This document shows positions 5,308-19,551 of a stretch of DNA of 64,000 bases, piece after piece (position 1 is the stretch's first letter; each line of letters starts with the position of its first letter). The notes below the pieces were generated by a model. The model was given only the letters and a program-made list of their open reading frames with translations. It had not been told where the DNA came from and ran no database searches. Location of the stretch: positions 62,001 to 126,000 of the forward strand of contig NZ_QQAW01000004.1 in NCBI RefSeq assembly GCF_003350405.1, in the 5' to 3' direction. Origin of the DNA: Gluconacetobacter liquefaciens (lineage in GTDB: Bacteria; Pseudomonadota; Alphaproteobacteria; Acetobacterales; Acetobacteraceae). A program made the position numbers and the translations under genes.

Positions 5308-5522
5308 GGCGGAAAGCCTCGCCCGTGGCGACGCCTGATCGCATTGCTGCAATCACCCAGCAGACACGCGACCTCGGCATGCTGTCGGTGCTGATGATCG
5401 GCGCCAGTCGGGCGGCGCTGCTGGATGATCATCCCAGGCCCAGCGATTACGCGATGGCCATGGAGTGGGTCGGGGTCGAGATCGATCGGCGGGTTGCGGC
5501 GATTGAGGAGATGCTGTCGTGA
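5304..5522 (+). CDS. Small helical protein, paralogue 4, end of early chain
   Basis: 72 residues, ATGA overlap with the HTH gene. Helices at IAAITQQTRDLGMLSVLMIG and SDYAMAMEWVGVEIDRRVAAIEEM. The second matches AxxWxGEEL-R of the proteins at 3517 and 3738, making this the fourth recognisable member of the paralogous family in the same operon. It is the last tightly coupled gene; about 300 bases without a supported gene follow. Function unknown. Confidence 0.6.
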   Translation: MRRKASPVATPDRIAAITQQTRDLGMLSVLMIGASRAALLDDHPRPSDYAMAMEWVGVEIDRRVAAIEEMLS

Positions 5523-5824
5523 TAGGACGGATTACATTTTCTACATTGGGAAAATCGTGCTTGCACACTCGTCCCATTTTTCTTAATGATCAAAGCACGG
5601 CGCGCGAAAGCGTAGGCGGCCAACTTCCAGCTCAGGTCAAAGAGTTTCTCGGTCAGTTCGAGAAAGTTGCGTCGTCATGCTTTCGCCGTGACGGGTCACA
5701 ATTAGCCTCGGTTTTGAGCACGCAAGATGCGTGTGAGGTTGTGTCCGTCGTGCCGGTTTGGATTTTTCCGAAGCATCGTCAGGCGCAACTGGGCCGGGGT
5801 CTCGTAAACCCATCCAGGAGCATT
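5523..5824 (+). other. Spacer between early chain and excisionase-like gene
   Basis: The frame of the following gene stays open back to a GTG at 5519. The extra 102 residues have no domain-like character, and a good ribosome-binding site (CCAGGAG) lies just before the ATG at 5825. I therefore read this as a non-coding spacer that probably holds the promoter of the excisionase-like gene. Confidence 0.45.
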
Positions 5825-6067
5825 ATGACGACTATCCTGAACAAAAATCCTGTTACAGCAAGCCATGTTGTGATCGAAGAACCGTATTTCGTGACGGTCG
5901 ACAACTGGTGTTCCAGAACAGGAATCAGCAAGAGCGACACCTATCGCAAGTTAGGTGCCGGGATTTTGCGTGCCAAAAAGGTCGGACGCCGTACGCTGAT
6001 CGATTTTCAGCATGGCTTGGCCTGGCTTCGAGCACGGCCTGACGCAGAGATCACGACGACAAAATGA
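5825..6067 (+). CDS. Excisionase/AlpA-like HTH protein 1
   Basis: 80 residues with CCAGGAG before the ATG. Core: YFVTVDNWCSRTGISKSDTY, then LGAGILRAKKVGRRTLID and FQHGLAWLRARP. This is the MerR-like winged-helix fold of excisionases and AlpA-type regulators (a conserved wing with KVGRRTLID and a C-terminal helix with LAWL). A clear paralogue lies at 11304-11573 (KVGKRTLIDIEHALAWL). It may direct integrase-mediated excision or regulate element genes; which of the two paralogues is the excisionase cannot be told. Confidence 0.7.
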   Translation: MTTILNKNPVTASHVVIEEPYFVTVDNWCSRTGISKSDTYRKLGAGILRAKKVGRRTLIDFQHGLAWLRARPDAEITTTK

Positions 6068-7601: not shown

Positions 7602-10132
7602 ACGCTGTGCCACCCAATGCGTCGGCCGCGCTGTCGGCAGGAATTCCTGCTGACCCGTTCCGGCCGCTGACCCCGGCGGAGAGGCAGAATGCAACACCCG
7701 CCAGCGGCAAGGATGAGGTGTGGGAGCCGCTTTCTCCGGCGCCGTGCGAGCCGGACTTGCCGCGCGGAGCGTCTGGCATGTGGGTCTACCACGACGAAGA
7801 GGGCCGGCCGCTTTGCGCCCGGTTCCGCGTGGATCGTGAGGACGGCGGGAAGGACATCCTGCCGCTGACCTATGGACGTCGGGTATGGATCGATCGGACG
7901 GGCCAACGTCGGGATATTACCGGCTGGCATTGGAAACAGGCGGCCAAGCCTTTGCCGCTCTATGGCTTGGATCGGCTGGCGGCCCAGCCTGATGCGCCCG
8001 TGCTGCTGGTCGAGGGTGAGAAGACGGCGGATGCGGCCCAGCGCCTGTTCCCTGACTATGTGGTGATGACGTCGCAGGGCGGTGGCAAGGCGGTCGGCAA
8101 CAACGACTGGTTGCCGCTGGGTAGCCGCACGGTGACGATCTGGCCGGACAACGATGAACCGGGCATGGCCTACGCAGATGCCGCCATCACAGCGATGCGC
8201 GAGGCCGGAGCGCTGATCGTGCGGCAGGTCGCCCTGCCGGCGGGTCTGCCGGACGGATGGGACGTTGCCGATGACGTGCCGCCGGAATTGACCAGTGGGG
8301 AGATCGCCGGCGTCGAATTCCTTCGGCCATGCCTGGACCAGGCCCCGCTGGCCGAGGCCAACGTGAAGATGCCCCTTGGCTACGCCATGACCGGCAAAGG
8401 GCTGCAATTCCTGCCCGAGCAGACCGGTGATGTGCCGGTATTCCCCGTCTGGATCTCGGCTCCGTTCGATGTGGTGGCCGAGACGAACGACGGTGACGGC
8501 TTCGGCTGGGGGTTGCTGATCCGCTGGCTGGACCGTGACCGGCGCGAGCATCAATGGGCCATCCCGAAACGGATGGTGCATGGCGAAGGGAAGGACATCG
8601 CCGGAGAGCTTGAGGATGCCGGCCTGAATTGTTCTATCTCGGCCACGCGCTACCTGCGCCAGTTCATCGCCTCGGTTCACACGAAGACCCGGCTGCGGTG
8701 CGTCGATCGGGCGGGCTGGCACCGCACCGACGACGGGCATGCCTTCATCCTGCCGGGTGGCTTCACCATCGGTGGCGGCCGGCGCTCGGTCGTGTTCCAG
8801 TCCAGCCGGGCCACTGTCGGGCGCGAGTTCACTCCCGGCGGCACGCTTGCGGACTGGCAGAAGCAGGTGGCGGCCTATGCGGTGGGCAACAGCCGGCTTG
8901 CCCTGTTTGTCTCGGCTGCCTTCGCGGGGCCGCTGCTGGACATCATGGGCGAGCAGTCGGGCGGCATCCATCTGGTTGGTAAGTCCCAGTCCGGCAAGAG
9001 CACGTCCGCCTTCATTGCCGGCAGCGTGTGGGGCAAGGGCGACCGTGACGGCCAGATCAGGGCATGGCGCGGCACGGCGAACGGACTGGAAGGCATTGCC
9101 AGCGAAACCTCCGACACCGTCCTGATCTTGGACGAGATGGGACAAGCCGAACCGCGCGAGGTGGGCGAGATCGCCTACATGCTGGCGAACAACACCGGCA
9201 AGCAGCGGGCCGGGCGGAATGGCGACGCCCGGGCACGCAAGACCTGGCGGGTTCTGTTCCTCTCGACCGGCGAGGTCACACTGGCCGCCAAGATGGGCGA
9301 GGCCGGGAAGCGTGCCATGGCGGGCCAGGAAGTGCGCCTGGTCAATATCCCCGCCGATGCCGGTGCGGGTATGGGCGCCTTCGAGCAACTGCACGACATG
9401 CGCTCGGCCGGCGCGCTGGCGGACCATTTGCGGGTGGCATCCCGTACCTTCTACGGCGTGGCCTCGCGGCATTTCCTCGAGGCACTGGTGCGGGACCGGG
9501 CCGCCGATCCGAAAGCACTGGAAACTGTGGTTCGTGCCATCCGGTCGCAGTTCGAGGAAGCGTATGCGCCCGCTGGCAATGTCGATGGGCAGGTGCGCAG
9601 TGTCGCGGCCCGGTTCGCCCTGATCGCGGCGGCCGGCGAGCTTGCGACCGACTATGGCGTGCTGCCCTGGGAACGGGGTGAAGCCATGAAAGCCGCCGGC
9701 GTGTGCTTTCTGGCATGGCTGGGAGAGCGCGGCAGCGTCGGGGCCAGCGAAGACGTGAAGGCGGTCGAGCAGGTCCGGGCCTTCATCGAGCAGCACGGCG
9801 AAAGCCGGTTTACCAACCTGGAACGGTTGGCATCGCTCGCGTCGGATCTGGGCGCCATCCCTGACAGCAAGACCATCAACCGCGCCGGTTTCAAGCGGAA
9901 GGTCGAAACGCCGGACGGTGATCGCTGGGAATACCTGATCCTGCCGGTAATGTGGAAAACGGAGATCTGCAAAGGACTGGACGCCGCAAACGTCGCCAAG
10001 GTGGTGCGTGATGCGGGCTATCTGGTGCCAGGGAATGACGGCAAGTCAGCTCAGTCTATCCGCATTCCCGGCGAGGGGCGGCTTCGGCTCTATGTCGTGA
10101 TGAGCAAAATCATGGGAGGGGCCGATGCTTAA
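7598..10132 (+). CDS. TOPRIM-DUF927 primase/helicase
   Basis: 844 residues. A TOPRIM-like domain lies at about 125-215 (VLLVEGEKTADAAQRLFP, VTIWPDNDEPGMAYAD). The DUF927 helicase-like region runs from about 275 to 600, with Walker A GKSQSGKST near residue 465 and Walker B VLILDEMGQ near 510, then an FLSTGEVTL strand. A C-terminal winged-helix-like region is less clear. Such proteins combine primase and superfamily-3-like helicase functions and initiate replication of integrated elements and phages. It ends at the edge of the symmetric repeat array (10169-10413), which may be its origin. It overlaps the 104-residue gene upstream. Confidence 0.85.
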   Translation: MNAVPPNASAALSAGIPADPFRPLTPAERQNATPASGKDEVWEPLSPAPCEPDLPRGASGMWVYHDEEGRPLCARFRVDREDGGKDILPLTYGRRVWIDRTGQRRDITGWHWKQAAKPLPLYGLDRLAAQPDAPVLLVEGEKTADAAQRLFPDYVVMTSQGGGKAVGNNDWLPLGSRTVTIWPDNDEPGMAYADAAITAMREAGALIVRQVALPAGLPDGWDVADDVPPELTSGEIAGVEFLRPCLDQAPLAEANVKMPLGYAMTGKGLQFLPEQTGDVPVFPVWISAPFDVVAETNDGDGFGWGLLIRWLDRDRREHQWAIPKRMVHGEGKDIAGELEDAGLNCSISATRYLRQFIASVHTKTRLRCVDRAGWHRTDDGHAFILPGGFTIGGGRRSVVFQSSRATVGREFTPGGTLADWQKQVAAYAVGNSRLALFVSAAFAGPLLDIMGEQSGGIHLVGKSQSGKSTSAFIAGSVWGKGDRDGQIRAWRGTANGLEGIASETSDTVLILDEMGQAEPREVGEIAYMLANNTGKQRAGRNGDARARKTWRVLFLSTGEVTLAAKMGEAGKRAMAGQEVRLVNIPADAGAGMGAFEQLHDMRSAGALADHLRVASRTFYGVASRHFLEALVRDRAADPKALETVVRAIRSQFEEAYAPAGNVDGQVRSVAARFALIAAAGELATDYGVLPWERGEAMKAAGVCFLAWLGERGSVGASEDVKAVEQVRAFIEQHGESRFTNLERLASLASDLGAIPDSKTINRAGFKRKVETPDGDRWEYLILPVMWKTEICKGLDAANVAKVVRDAGYLVPGNDGKSAQSIRIPGEGRLRLYVVMSKIMGGADA

Positions 10133-10168
10133 GGCGGCCTACTCCCATGTGCTTCATTCAATTTTCCG

Positions 10169-10413
10169 GTGTTCCGGGTGTTCCGGGTGTTCCAGTCTGC
10201 TGGACTCCGCAGCATTCCGCCGTTTTTGGCGTGTCCGGTCTGGAACACATCCCAAAGTGGCCAGTGTTCCAAGTGTTCCCGTAACACTCCGAGACAGAGA
10301 ACTGGAACACCTGGAACACGTCGTTTCTTGCCCGGTGTTCCACCGCGCCATCCCTGAATGCGTTGGGAAACAGCCGTTTTCTCGACATGGAACACCTGGA
10401 ACACTTGGAACAC
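10169..10413. repeat. Mirror-symmetric iteron-like array (12 GTGTTCC units)
   Basis: Six GTGTTCC units (10169, 10178, 10187, 10264, 10273, 10335) and six inverted GGAACAC units (10242, 10304, 10313, 10389, 10398, 10407), spaced 9 bp within groups. The groups are 3+, 1-, 2+, 2-, 1+, 3-, and every pair is symmetric about position 10291 to within half a base. The array directly follows the primase/helicase gene. It resembles an iteron-type replication origin or a cooperative protein-binding array. Open frames across it (10125-10454 plus and others) consist of tripeptide repeats created by the 9-bp period. Confidence 0.8.
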
Positions 10414-10447
10414 CACATTCCAGTCATGTCGGGGCGGAGGACGGCGC

Positions 10448-11179
10448 ATGGTGAGCCCGAACCTCCTGCGTTGGGCAGAAGATCAGGCACCGACGCCCTC
10501 AGATCCAAGGCGGTCTGCCCCCATCGATCTGGCGGCCGTAACCGATGACGAGCGTGCCGCTGCGCTGGCTGGAAACTCCAGGGGCGTGATCCGGGAACTT
10601 GAATGGTGCGGGGCCACGGTCCTGCTCAAGGATGGCGTGCCGGTCATCAAGGGAGCGGCGAACGTCGAGCCGGAGACGATGGTGCTGGCTCGCGAGTATC
10701 GGCGCGAGATTGCCATCGTGCTGGACTGCTGGGCCCGGGAATGGCTGCCACCCCGTGATCCGCTCTCCGCTGACGATCCGGCGTCAGTCTCAGCCGCTGC
10801 CGATAATGGGAACCATATCGAACGAGACCCCGTCACCGCCAAGCTGCGCATCATCGGAGAGGCGCCAGATGAGCGGTGGCTGACAGACCGTGGCTGGACG
10901 TGGTGTCGCACCCGGCACCGGTGGATGGCGCCCTACCCGCACGACGTTGCAGACCCGACGCCGGAATGGTTCGTCCAACTCGCGCCCAGGCAGAGCGTGA
11001 ACGGCAAGTCGGCGCCCGACATGGACCCGACCGAGGTGCCGTGTTCGCTATGTGGTCTCGCCCATTGGTGGCGCAGGCATGATGTTTCCAGCCGGGAATG
11101 GGTGTGCCGGACCTGCCATCCGCCCCCGCCGGGCATCGGCATCACTGCGCCGAGAAAGGAGATCGGCACCGAGCGGTGA
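10448..11179 (+). CDS. Hypothetical protein with C-terminal zinc-finger-like motif
   Basis: 243 residues, starting just after the repeat array. The N-terminal part (LLRWAEDQAP, ERAAALAGNSRGVIRELEW) and DRGWTWCRTRHRWMAPYPHD belong to no family I know. Near the C-terminus CSLCG (about 203) and CRTC (about 223) form a CxxC-x(about 16)-CxxC zinc-ribbon pattern. The place after a primase gene and a proline-rich linker suggests a DNA-handling accessory. A GTG three bases on is an alternative start. Confidence 0.6.
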   Translation: MVSPNLLRWAEDQAPTPSDPRRSAPIDLAAVTDDERAAALAGNSRGVIRELEWCGATVLLKDGVPVIKGAANVEPETMVLAREYRREIAIVLDCWAREWLPPRDPLSADDPASVSAAADNGNHIERDPVTAKLRIIGEAPDERWLTDRGWTWCRTRHRWMAPYPHDVADPTPEWFVQLAPRQSVNGKSAPDMDPTEVPCSLCGLAHWWRRHDVSSREWVCRTCHPPPPGIGITAPRKEIGTER

Positions 11180-11303: not shown

Positions 11304-11573
11304 GTGTATCGTCTCGTTATGCCTGAAATGCAGAAAAACAGCGGTCCCCGCCGAAAACCTTCTCCGTTGGAGAATGCTGGACTGACGCCCCGTTATATGC
11401 CGCTCAGTCTGTCTTCTCCTTTCTTGGGCCTGACCCGGTGCAAGCTGTATGACCTGCTGGGGTCGGGCGAGATCCGGGCGGTCAAGGTCGGGAAGCGCAC
11501 CTTGATCGATATCGAACATGCTCTTGCATGGCTCGGGTCACTGCCGCCGGCCCGCTTCGGGAAGCAGTCGTGA
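11304..11573 (+). CDS. Excisionase/AlpA-like HTH protein 2
   Basis: 89 residues from a GTG (an ATG five codons later is equally possible). The core SSPFLGLTRCKLYDLLGSGE, IRAVKVGKRTLIDIEHALAWL is the winged-helix fold of excisionases and clearly paralogous to the protein at 5825-6067. It lies behind an AT-rich 120-base spacer that probably holds its promoter, and its stop overlaps the start of the DUF5681 gene (TGATG). It may control the downstream virion-protein operon or assist excision. Confidence 0.7.
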   Translation: MYRLVMPEMQKNSGPRRKPSPLENAGLTPRYMPLSLSSPFLGLTRCKLYDLLGSGEIRAVKVGKRTLIDIEHALAWLGSLPPARFGKQS

Positions 11574-19272: not shown

Positions 19273-19458
19273 CCCGGACATTCTCGGCCGGCGGTGGCCA
19301 ATCGAGCGGCTGCGTTGAGAGAGCTTTCGGCGCGTGGATATGCCCCGCTGCTCATCGCTGTATCTGGGCAGCGCGGTTTCTAAGAGGGATAGCAAGAGGG
19401 GTAGAATACCTACGTCCTTCGCTAAGGCCCTGATTTACAATAGGAAAATGGGAAGTGT

Positions 19459-19551
19459 TGGCGGAGGGGATGGGATTCGAACCCACGGTACGGCTTGACA
19501 CCGTACAACGGTTTAGCAAACCGCCGCCTTCAGCCACTCGGCCACCCCTCC
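19459..19551 (-). tRNA. tRNA-Ser (anticodon GCT)
   Basis: 93 bases including an encoded CCA. Acceptor GGAGGGG/CCCCTCC with discriminator G, D-arm TGGCCGAGTGGCTGAAGGC, anticodon stem-loop GGTTTGCTAAACC with anticodon GCT, a long variable arm, and T-arm GTGGGTTCGAATCCCAT. It decodes AGC and AGU. Its 3' end faces the mobile element, the standard orientation for a tRNA used as an attachment site. Confidence 0.97.

Follow-up and report, generated by a model that had tools for sequence, protein, structure and literature searches.

A mirrored twelve-site array beside a Toprim-DUF927 helicase gene as the probable replication origin of an integrated element in Gluconacetobacter liquefaciens

We identified a highly ordered array of twelve short sites directly downstream of a TOPRIM-DUF927 gene in a 64,000-nucleotide stretch of the Gluconacetobacter liquefaciens genome (hereafter the window). 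We propose, with a probability of roughly 0.86, that this array serves a 23-kb integrated mobile element as its origin of replication, of the rep-ori kind described in SaPI and PICI elements, and that it is read by the C-terminal domain of the adjoining helicase, with each half of the array loading one hexamer. This reading is favoured because of the family of the helicase, the position of the array, the conservation of its units over its spacers, its recurrence among relatives, and the co-change of the array with the helicase C-terminus. An earlier note, made from the sequence of the window, had suggested an origin or initiator site, and the same lines of evidence support that suggestion. The coordinates of the features are collected in Table 1.

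Table 1. Features of the array, the neighbouring genes, and the element end within the window (window positions unless a contig is given).
Feature	Position	Strand	Details
Left module	10169..10279	+	GTGTTCC at 10169, 10178, 10187; GGAACAC at 10242; GTGTTCC at 10264, 10273
Centre between modules	10280..10303	.	12/24 bases A or T; axis 10291-10291.5
Right module, mirror of left	10304..10413	-	GGAACAC at 10304, 10313; GTGTTCC at 10335; GGAACAC at 10389, 10398, 10407
TOPRIM-DUF927 protein, 844 aa	7598..10132	+	Pfam, profile search, Foldseek
C-terminal domain aa 717-844, proposed array reader	9746..10129	+	Model, weak Foldseek, divergence together with array
Next gene, no family found	10448..11179	+	In relative L185, conserved beyond array
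16-bp direct repeat, 3' end of tRNA-Ser(GCT)	19457..19472	.	Partner at C4:58209-58224, 3.8 kb left of window

An exact-word count over the 64-kb window places 12 copies of GTGTTCC or GGAACAC at 10169-10413, six per strand, in groups of three forward, one inverted and two forward sites followed by two inverted, one forward and three inverted sites (3> 1< 2>, then 2< 1> 3<), and within a group the starts of neighbouring sites lie 9 bp from each other. The starts of mirror partners sum to 20576 for the three outer pairs and to 20577 for the three inner pairs, which sets the axis at 10291-10291.5 and makes the symmetry exact to 1 bp; the earlier description of twelve units mirrored about a centre near 10291 is thereby confirmed. 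The whole window contains 20 copies of the two words compared to 5.75 expected, and 0 of 100 dinucleotide shuffles reached 20 (shuffle maximum 13). When gaps and orientations were permuted 20,000 times, six mirror pairs at 1-bp tolerance arose once. Moreover, the array is the sole location of the tandem pair GTGTTCCNNGTGTTCC in the genome (4.17 Mb, 31 contigs). A thirteenth copy with one mismatch occurs at 10281 and is absent from the nearest relative, L184.

In composition, the array has a GC content of 56% compared to 62% for the element, and its centre is 50% AT, with 40-47% AT in the remaining spacers; no AT-rich region lies between the two site sets of the window array. In the element of the window, the GC skew does not switch at the array (0.044 and 0.046), and a search of Rfam over 9800-10800 returned 0 matches, setting aside known RNA families. 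The long spacers of the window (10194-10241 and 10342-10388) and those of L186, L188 and L189 (acetic-acid bacteria) seem by eye to have in common a motif like AAAACGGCnGAAAACnGCC, which is loose in the window.

The two copies of the 16-bp direct repeat are probably the ends of an integrated element of 23,264 bp (23.3 kb) that contains the array. A tyrosine integrase adjoins the left copy, and another 16-bp repeat is present inside the element; the repeat at 19457-19472 was picked over the inner one because of its location at a tRNA end and the nearby integrase. A PICI as a whole comprises int, an excisionase or alpA gene, pri-rep and ori, and leads a life that depends on a helper phage. The window element contains integrases, the att-like repeat, excisionase-like helix-turn-helix proteins, and head- and tail-like genes; no large terminase or capsid was found among the subset of element frames scanned. 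The excisionase-like proteins (window 5519-6067 and 11304-11573) score 24 bits, under the curated cut-off of 28.8.

The first unit of the array lies 36 bp past the stop codon of the 844-aa gene, in agreement with the earlier statement that the array follows a TOPRIM-DUF927 gene. The protein can be divided into a primase-core region (approximately aa 60-230, with Toprim matches at 151-229), a helicase (approximately aa 267-696), and a C-terminal region (aa 717-844). Pfam matched DUF927 (1.6e-76) and DUF6371 (6e-7), with no match at the C-terminus. A profile of 74 sequences matched SaPIBov1 Rep (8tch; 5e-30, aa 267-696), and SCCmec Cch (5dgk; 8e-26, aa 460-691), with weaker matches to Toprim chains (2e-5, aa 151-230). 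In Foldseek, an AlphaFold model of the whole protein (mean pLDDT 90.7) was matched best by 5dgk and 8tch. By Pfam, profile and Foldseek, the window helicase belongs to the SaPIBov1 Rep/Cch family. The NCBIfam Cch1 equivalog model matches it at 2e-17 and 63 bits, far under the cut-off of 700, which makes it a distant relative and not an equivalog. Modelled alone, the C-terminus (aa 714-844; pLDDT 85.7) had chains of 8tch and 5dgk as its top four Foldseek matches, at weak E values of 0.006-0.08, and from the order of helices and strands in this model the region may be read as a winged helix. The Pfam Cch helix-turn-helix domain was found at the C-terminus of one relative (L022). A second DUF927 gene in the same genome (L364; G000:C1:62844-64553) is 42% identical and has no scored array in the 576 bp of downstream flank covered.

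Similar arrays recur beside related genes. We assembled 220 loci, of which 217 came from protein searches of whole genomes, genome contigs and viral contigs (using the best 80 of 526 genome-contig and the best 80 of 138 viral-contig matches) and three from a pattern scan, two of the latter also being recovered by protein search. Dropping 19 loci without a C-terminal match and one with a short flank left 200, and removal of 66 near-duplicates left 134, including the window. Using a de novo array caller with no preset unit and a score threshold of 9 of our own choosing, we obtained a scoring array in the first 1 kb downstream for 82 of these 134 non-redundant loci (window included), a few of the calls being badly parsed (e.g. 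L131, where the seed word is off register), as compared to 0 of 134 shuffled downstream stretches. For the 116 loci with enough flank on both sides, 70 scored downstream, 3 upstream and 5 inside the gene. Across the full set of 134, the median distance from gene to first site was 42 bp for the 78 arrays scoring at least 10. No strong array was found within 1 kb downstream in 52 of the 134 loci; 13 of these 52 have one scoring at least 10 elsewhere in the part of the locus covered (six downstream, four upstream by up to 3.6 kb, and three inside the called frame), versus 1 of 52 after shuffling. In a sample of 24 loci drawn by Pfam family, omitting the locus of the window and counting once a gene split over two loci, 13 of 22 DUF927 genes other than that of the window had an array, two of the 13 being already in the first set.

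Annotated records of seven plasmids and five phages gave scores of at least 9 in 8 of 12 cases (L344-L349, L351 and L353, with L344 doubtful), while the phage or plasmid records L350, L352, L354 and L355 scored under 9. The array lies within 83 bp of the DUF927 gene in four of the seven plasmid records (L345, L346, L347 and L353), and no such array was found near the DUF927 gene in plasmid records L354 and L355. The array of L344 scored 10, but it is situated near repM at a distance of 650 bp from the DUF927 gene and was not counted as support. Phages L348 and L349, from Bacillota hosts, carry mirrored sets around a centre that by eye is AT-rich. The viral loci L109-L126, which were found with the window protein alone, match only aa 20-260, contain no GTGTTCC array, and were omitted from the de novo search and the counts. 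A tandem GTGTTCC triple by itself was rejected as a diagnostic feature: 102 viral stretches have one, and 86 have a cluster of at least four units, which occupies both strands in 11 of the 86; the remaining viral clusters are one-strand runs, many of them spaced in multiples of 9 like coding repeats.

The unit words vary widely among arrays (GTGTTCC, GTCACACC, TCCCGACAG, GGGTTACC, GGGTAAC, TGGGGCC, and others), and a faint TGnnnC skeleton is common to the units of the 49 orientable arrays, 33 of the 82 being not orientable for unit alignment. A six-site module recurs, in which a pair is followed by one inverted site and then by a triple (2> 1< 3>), and is used singly or as a mirror pair. The number of sites per array, from 5 to 14, is distributed as 1, 22, 10, 7, 5, 6, 8, 14, 7 and 2 arrays (n = 82), with peaks at 6 and 12. 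At least eight sites stand in mirror pairs in 30 of the 82 arrays (29 with a permutation p of 0.05 or lower), and 36 are single-module-like arrays without a global mirror. The distance between pair and triple, in 51 parsed modules from 42 loci, is 53-57 bp (20 modules), 66-68 bp (4) or 76-79 bp (27), with none between. Specifically, the best period of this spacer step is 11.5 bp (R = 0.86, reached by 0 of 2,000 uniform draws; R = 0.82 at 11.0 and 0.71 at 10.5), which makes the step approximately one helical turn, slightly above 10.5 bp. The array of L203, from a Nitrospinaceae genome and beside a protein that is 40% identical, combines the word GGGTAAC with a spacing almost that of the window.

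The earlier note had recommended asking whether homologous elements keep the mirror order while the intervening bases vary, and a close equivalent of that comparison gave this result. In the nearest relative (L184, Gluconacetobacter aggeris LMG 27801; 95% identical), the 245-bp array aligns gap-free to that of the window with 84 of 84 unit bases and 110 of 161 spacer bases kept, or 97 of 102 and 104 of 151, respectively, when a wider unit is used. Units were better kept than spacers in 10 of 10 hand-chosen locus pairs whose units were identical or nearly so. Between L298 and L299, a single base separates the words, GTGGTTACA and GTGGCTACA, within a similar layout, a concerted change across the whole array.

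Among near-identical helicases, the array and the C-terminus mostly change together. L185, a locus from the same G. aggeris strain as L184, encodes a protein that is 84% identical to that of the window, and its DNA identity to the window is 82-97% over most of the gene, 33-80% at 9798-10397 (the end of the gene and the array), and 73-95% beyond, its word TGTTCCGAC being set in a mirror layout nearly as in the window. A second dip in identity, to 49-68% at 8198-8497, falls in the linker after Toprim, and the array hypothesis has no explanation for it. The two elements of LMG 27801 (L184 and L185) have 98% identical helicase cores, near-same mirror layouts and different words, as would be expected if words act as compatibility groups. 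The swap between L127 and L185 was counted as support for co-change. Where helicase cores share 95% identity or more, C-termini have a median identity of 99% in pairs with the same word (n = 92) versus 81% in pairs with different words (n = 14), the locus pairs in this comparison not being independent. The corresponding values are 84% versus 75% in the 90-95% core band (n = 6 and 3), 75% versus 59% at 85-90% (n = 21 and 5), 74% versus 61% at 80-85% (n = 5 and 3), and 64% for both kinds of pair at 75-80% (n = 39 and 78). L335 and L312 have identical cores, C-termini that are 54% alike, and different words; L331 differs in word from L325, L326, L328 and L329 despite C-termini that are 94% alike. 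A partial Mantel test on 48 usable arrays gave weak correlations for the C-terminus (r = 0.11, p = 0.028) and its last part (r = 0.14, p = 0.012), with p = 0.22 for Toprim and p = 0.56 for the linker.

An origin is not the only function that such sites might serve. The array might be an operator, where cooperative binding to the units, by the protein or by a different regulator, controls transcription of the next genes, and its location between two same-direction genes as well as the winged-helix region at the C-terminus would suit such a role. We nevertheless consider this improbable: no sigma-70-type promoter or terminator was found at 9900-10700, the arrays of the 13 loci noted above lie elsewhere than just after the gene, and twelve sites in a fixed mirror would exceed the needs of an operator. 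The earlier idea of a repressor site is weakened by the lack of a promoter in that interval, and an origin might also act as an operator in addition to its main task. Somewhat less probable again is another cis-acting site of the same protein for partition, transfer (oriT) or packaging, which would be in keeping with the phage-like genes in the element and with the weak match of the C-terminal model to 5vfx, the oriT-binding relaxosome accessory protein of pCW3 (Foldseek rank 5, E 0.086); SaPI Rep and Cch outrank 5vfx, however, and the adjoining gene encodes a primase-helicase rather than a relaxase, ParB or terminase.

The remaining alternatives concern the DNA itself and what it might encode. 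The earlier note had also raised a large cruciform. The mirror repeat might fold as a cruciform or hairpin, and the folding energy of the array is low relative to shuffles (z = -7.0), but a high fold score follows from sites laid out as a mirror. Since 36 of the 82 arrays are apparent single modules without a global mirror and the spacers diverge, a cruciform is not a conserved feature, and we regard a structural role as very unlikely and that claim as not upheld. A protein-coding repeat was set aside as having a negligible probability. Although a 109-aa reading frame spans the array, and the arrays of L131, L137 and L138 seemingly overlap (by eye) with either the beginning of the following frame or the last part of the gene frame, the sites are on both strands and mirrored, none of the six frames is stop-free in all ten loci compared, and the unit letters change between relatives while the spacing stays, such that any encoded peptide would change too.

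The proposed origin can be compared with several known systems. The alpha protein of phage P4 joins primase and helicase in one chain and recognizes short repeats of either orientation (ori/crr), but it belongs to another helicase family, and P4 needs a second site, crr. SCCmec Cch is, like the window helicase, a DUF927 helicase, and 5dgk is the closest solved structure; Cch is not known to have a fused Toprim. Classical iteron plasmid origins have long direct repeats of approximately 17-22 bp in one orientation and a DnaA box, whereas the window array has a 9-bp period and both orientations. Classical iterons of 17 and 19 bp are exemplified in PMC7433901. According to Bebel 2020 (PMC7581432), earlier work on SCC elements had not identified an origin, and the C-terminal domain of Cch2 and other D5-type helicases binds repeats downstream of their own gene; these proteins differ from that of the window in belonging to another helicase family and in having three short direct AAGTG iterons rather than twelve mirrored sites.

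As in the SaPI/PICI rep-ori (SaPIBov1 Rep and the pri-rep-ori of EcCICFT073), the initiator helicase of the window is fused or next to a primase, and two iteron sets lie directly 3' of the gene, a comparison made by description with PMC6092414 and PMC7581432; SaPIBov1 Rep is of the same helicase family as the window protein. The rep-ori segment of EcCICFT073 maintains a plasmid, while a rep mutant gives no colonies and deletion of ori gives significantly fewer (Fillol-Salom et al. 2018, PMC6092414). This kind of origin is already known, PICI origins being described there as two iteron sets around an AT-rich region, which in the E. coli PICIs of that paper always lies between the sets. We do not class the window array as a PICI origin because it has no AT-rich centre, and we suggest by analogy that it works like one. 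It also differs from the SaPI/PICI descriptions in those texts in its nested 3-1-2 mirror, in the single-module form of relatives, and in the occurrence of such arrays in plasmids and phages as well. The earlier impression that the symmetry was undescribed is accordingly only partly retained: two-set origins are described in PMC6092414. The passages searched there and in the other literature contained no six-site module, no turn-step spacers, no single-module form and no exchange of words, and part of the layout may already be in print, for instance in the original SaPI origin papers (Ubeda 2007, 2012) or the figure of the PICI origins.

We hypothesize that the neighbouring gene encodes a fused primase-helicase initiator of the SaPIBov1-Rep/Cch family, whose C-terminal winged-helix region would bind the 9-bp units. 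Each six-site module (pair, inverted single and triple) would seat one set of subunits in a fixed geometry, and, as spacers change by approximately one helical turn, we propose that the sites keep the same face. Mirrored modules would load a pair of helicase rings in head-to-head orientation, whereby the paired rings may melt the DNA and start two forks while the Toprim domain supplies primers. We thus infer a course of binding, one hexamer per module, melting, priming, and two-way replication. A more general and tentative idea, to which we give clearly less than even odds, is that these origins are written in geometry rather than in letters: any cognate 9-bp word in a phase-locked six-site module might seat one ring, domain and array might be exchanged together so that co-resident elements become mutually blind, and a single module might give one fork where mirrored modules give two. 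Natural origins that keep a layout, vary in word, and come in one- and two-module forms would allow a direct test of an open question, namely the mechanism by which self-loading ring helicases open double-stranded DNA and the number of rings, one or two, that this requires. More broadly, the layout could provide a word-independent signature for the origins of satellites, phages and plasmids carrying this helicase, and it would also predict which elements can share a cell.

Three individual loci carry related arrangements. L038 has a 14-site mirrored GTGTTCC array (9399-9632) close to an integrase gene; the four adjoining frames that were tested include no helicase. At L030 (1793-1940), GTGTTCC triples in mirror order directly follow the gene for a helicase of the D5/Pox_D5 type whose C-terminal domain is RFX-like, which places a similar layout beside another helicase family; the locus resembles the Cch2/D5-type systems in its helicase, yet its triples are mirrored. 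In L346, a linear plasmid of Photobacterium toruni with a protelomerase gene, the DUF927 gene is the only replication-type gene annotated, and it is followed by GTTACAC triples around a stretch that is, by eye, AT-rich.
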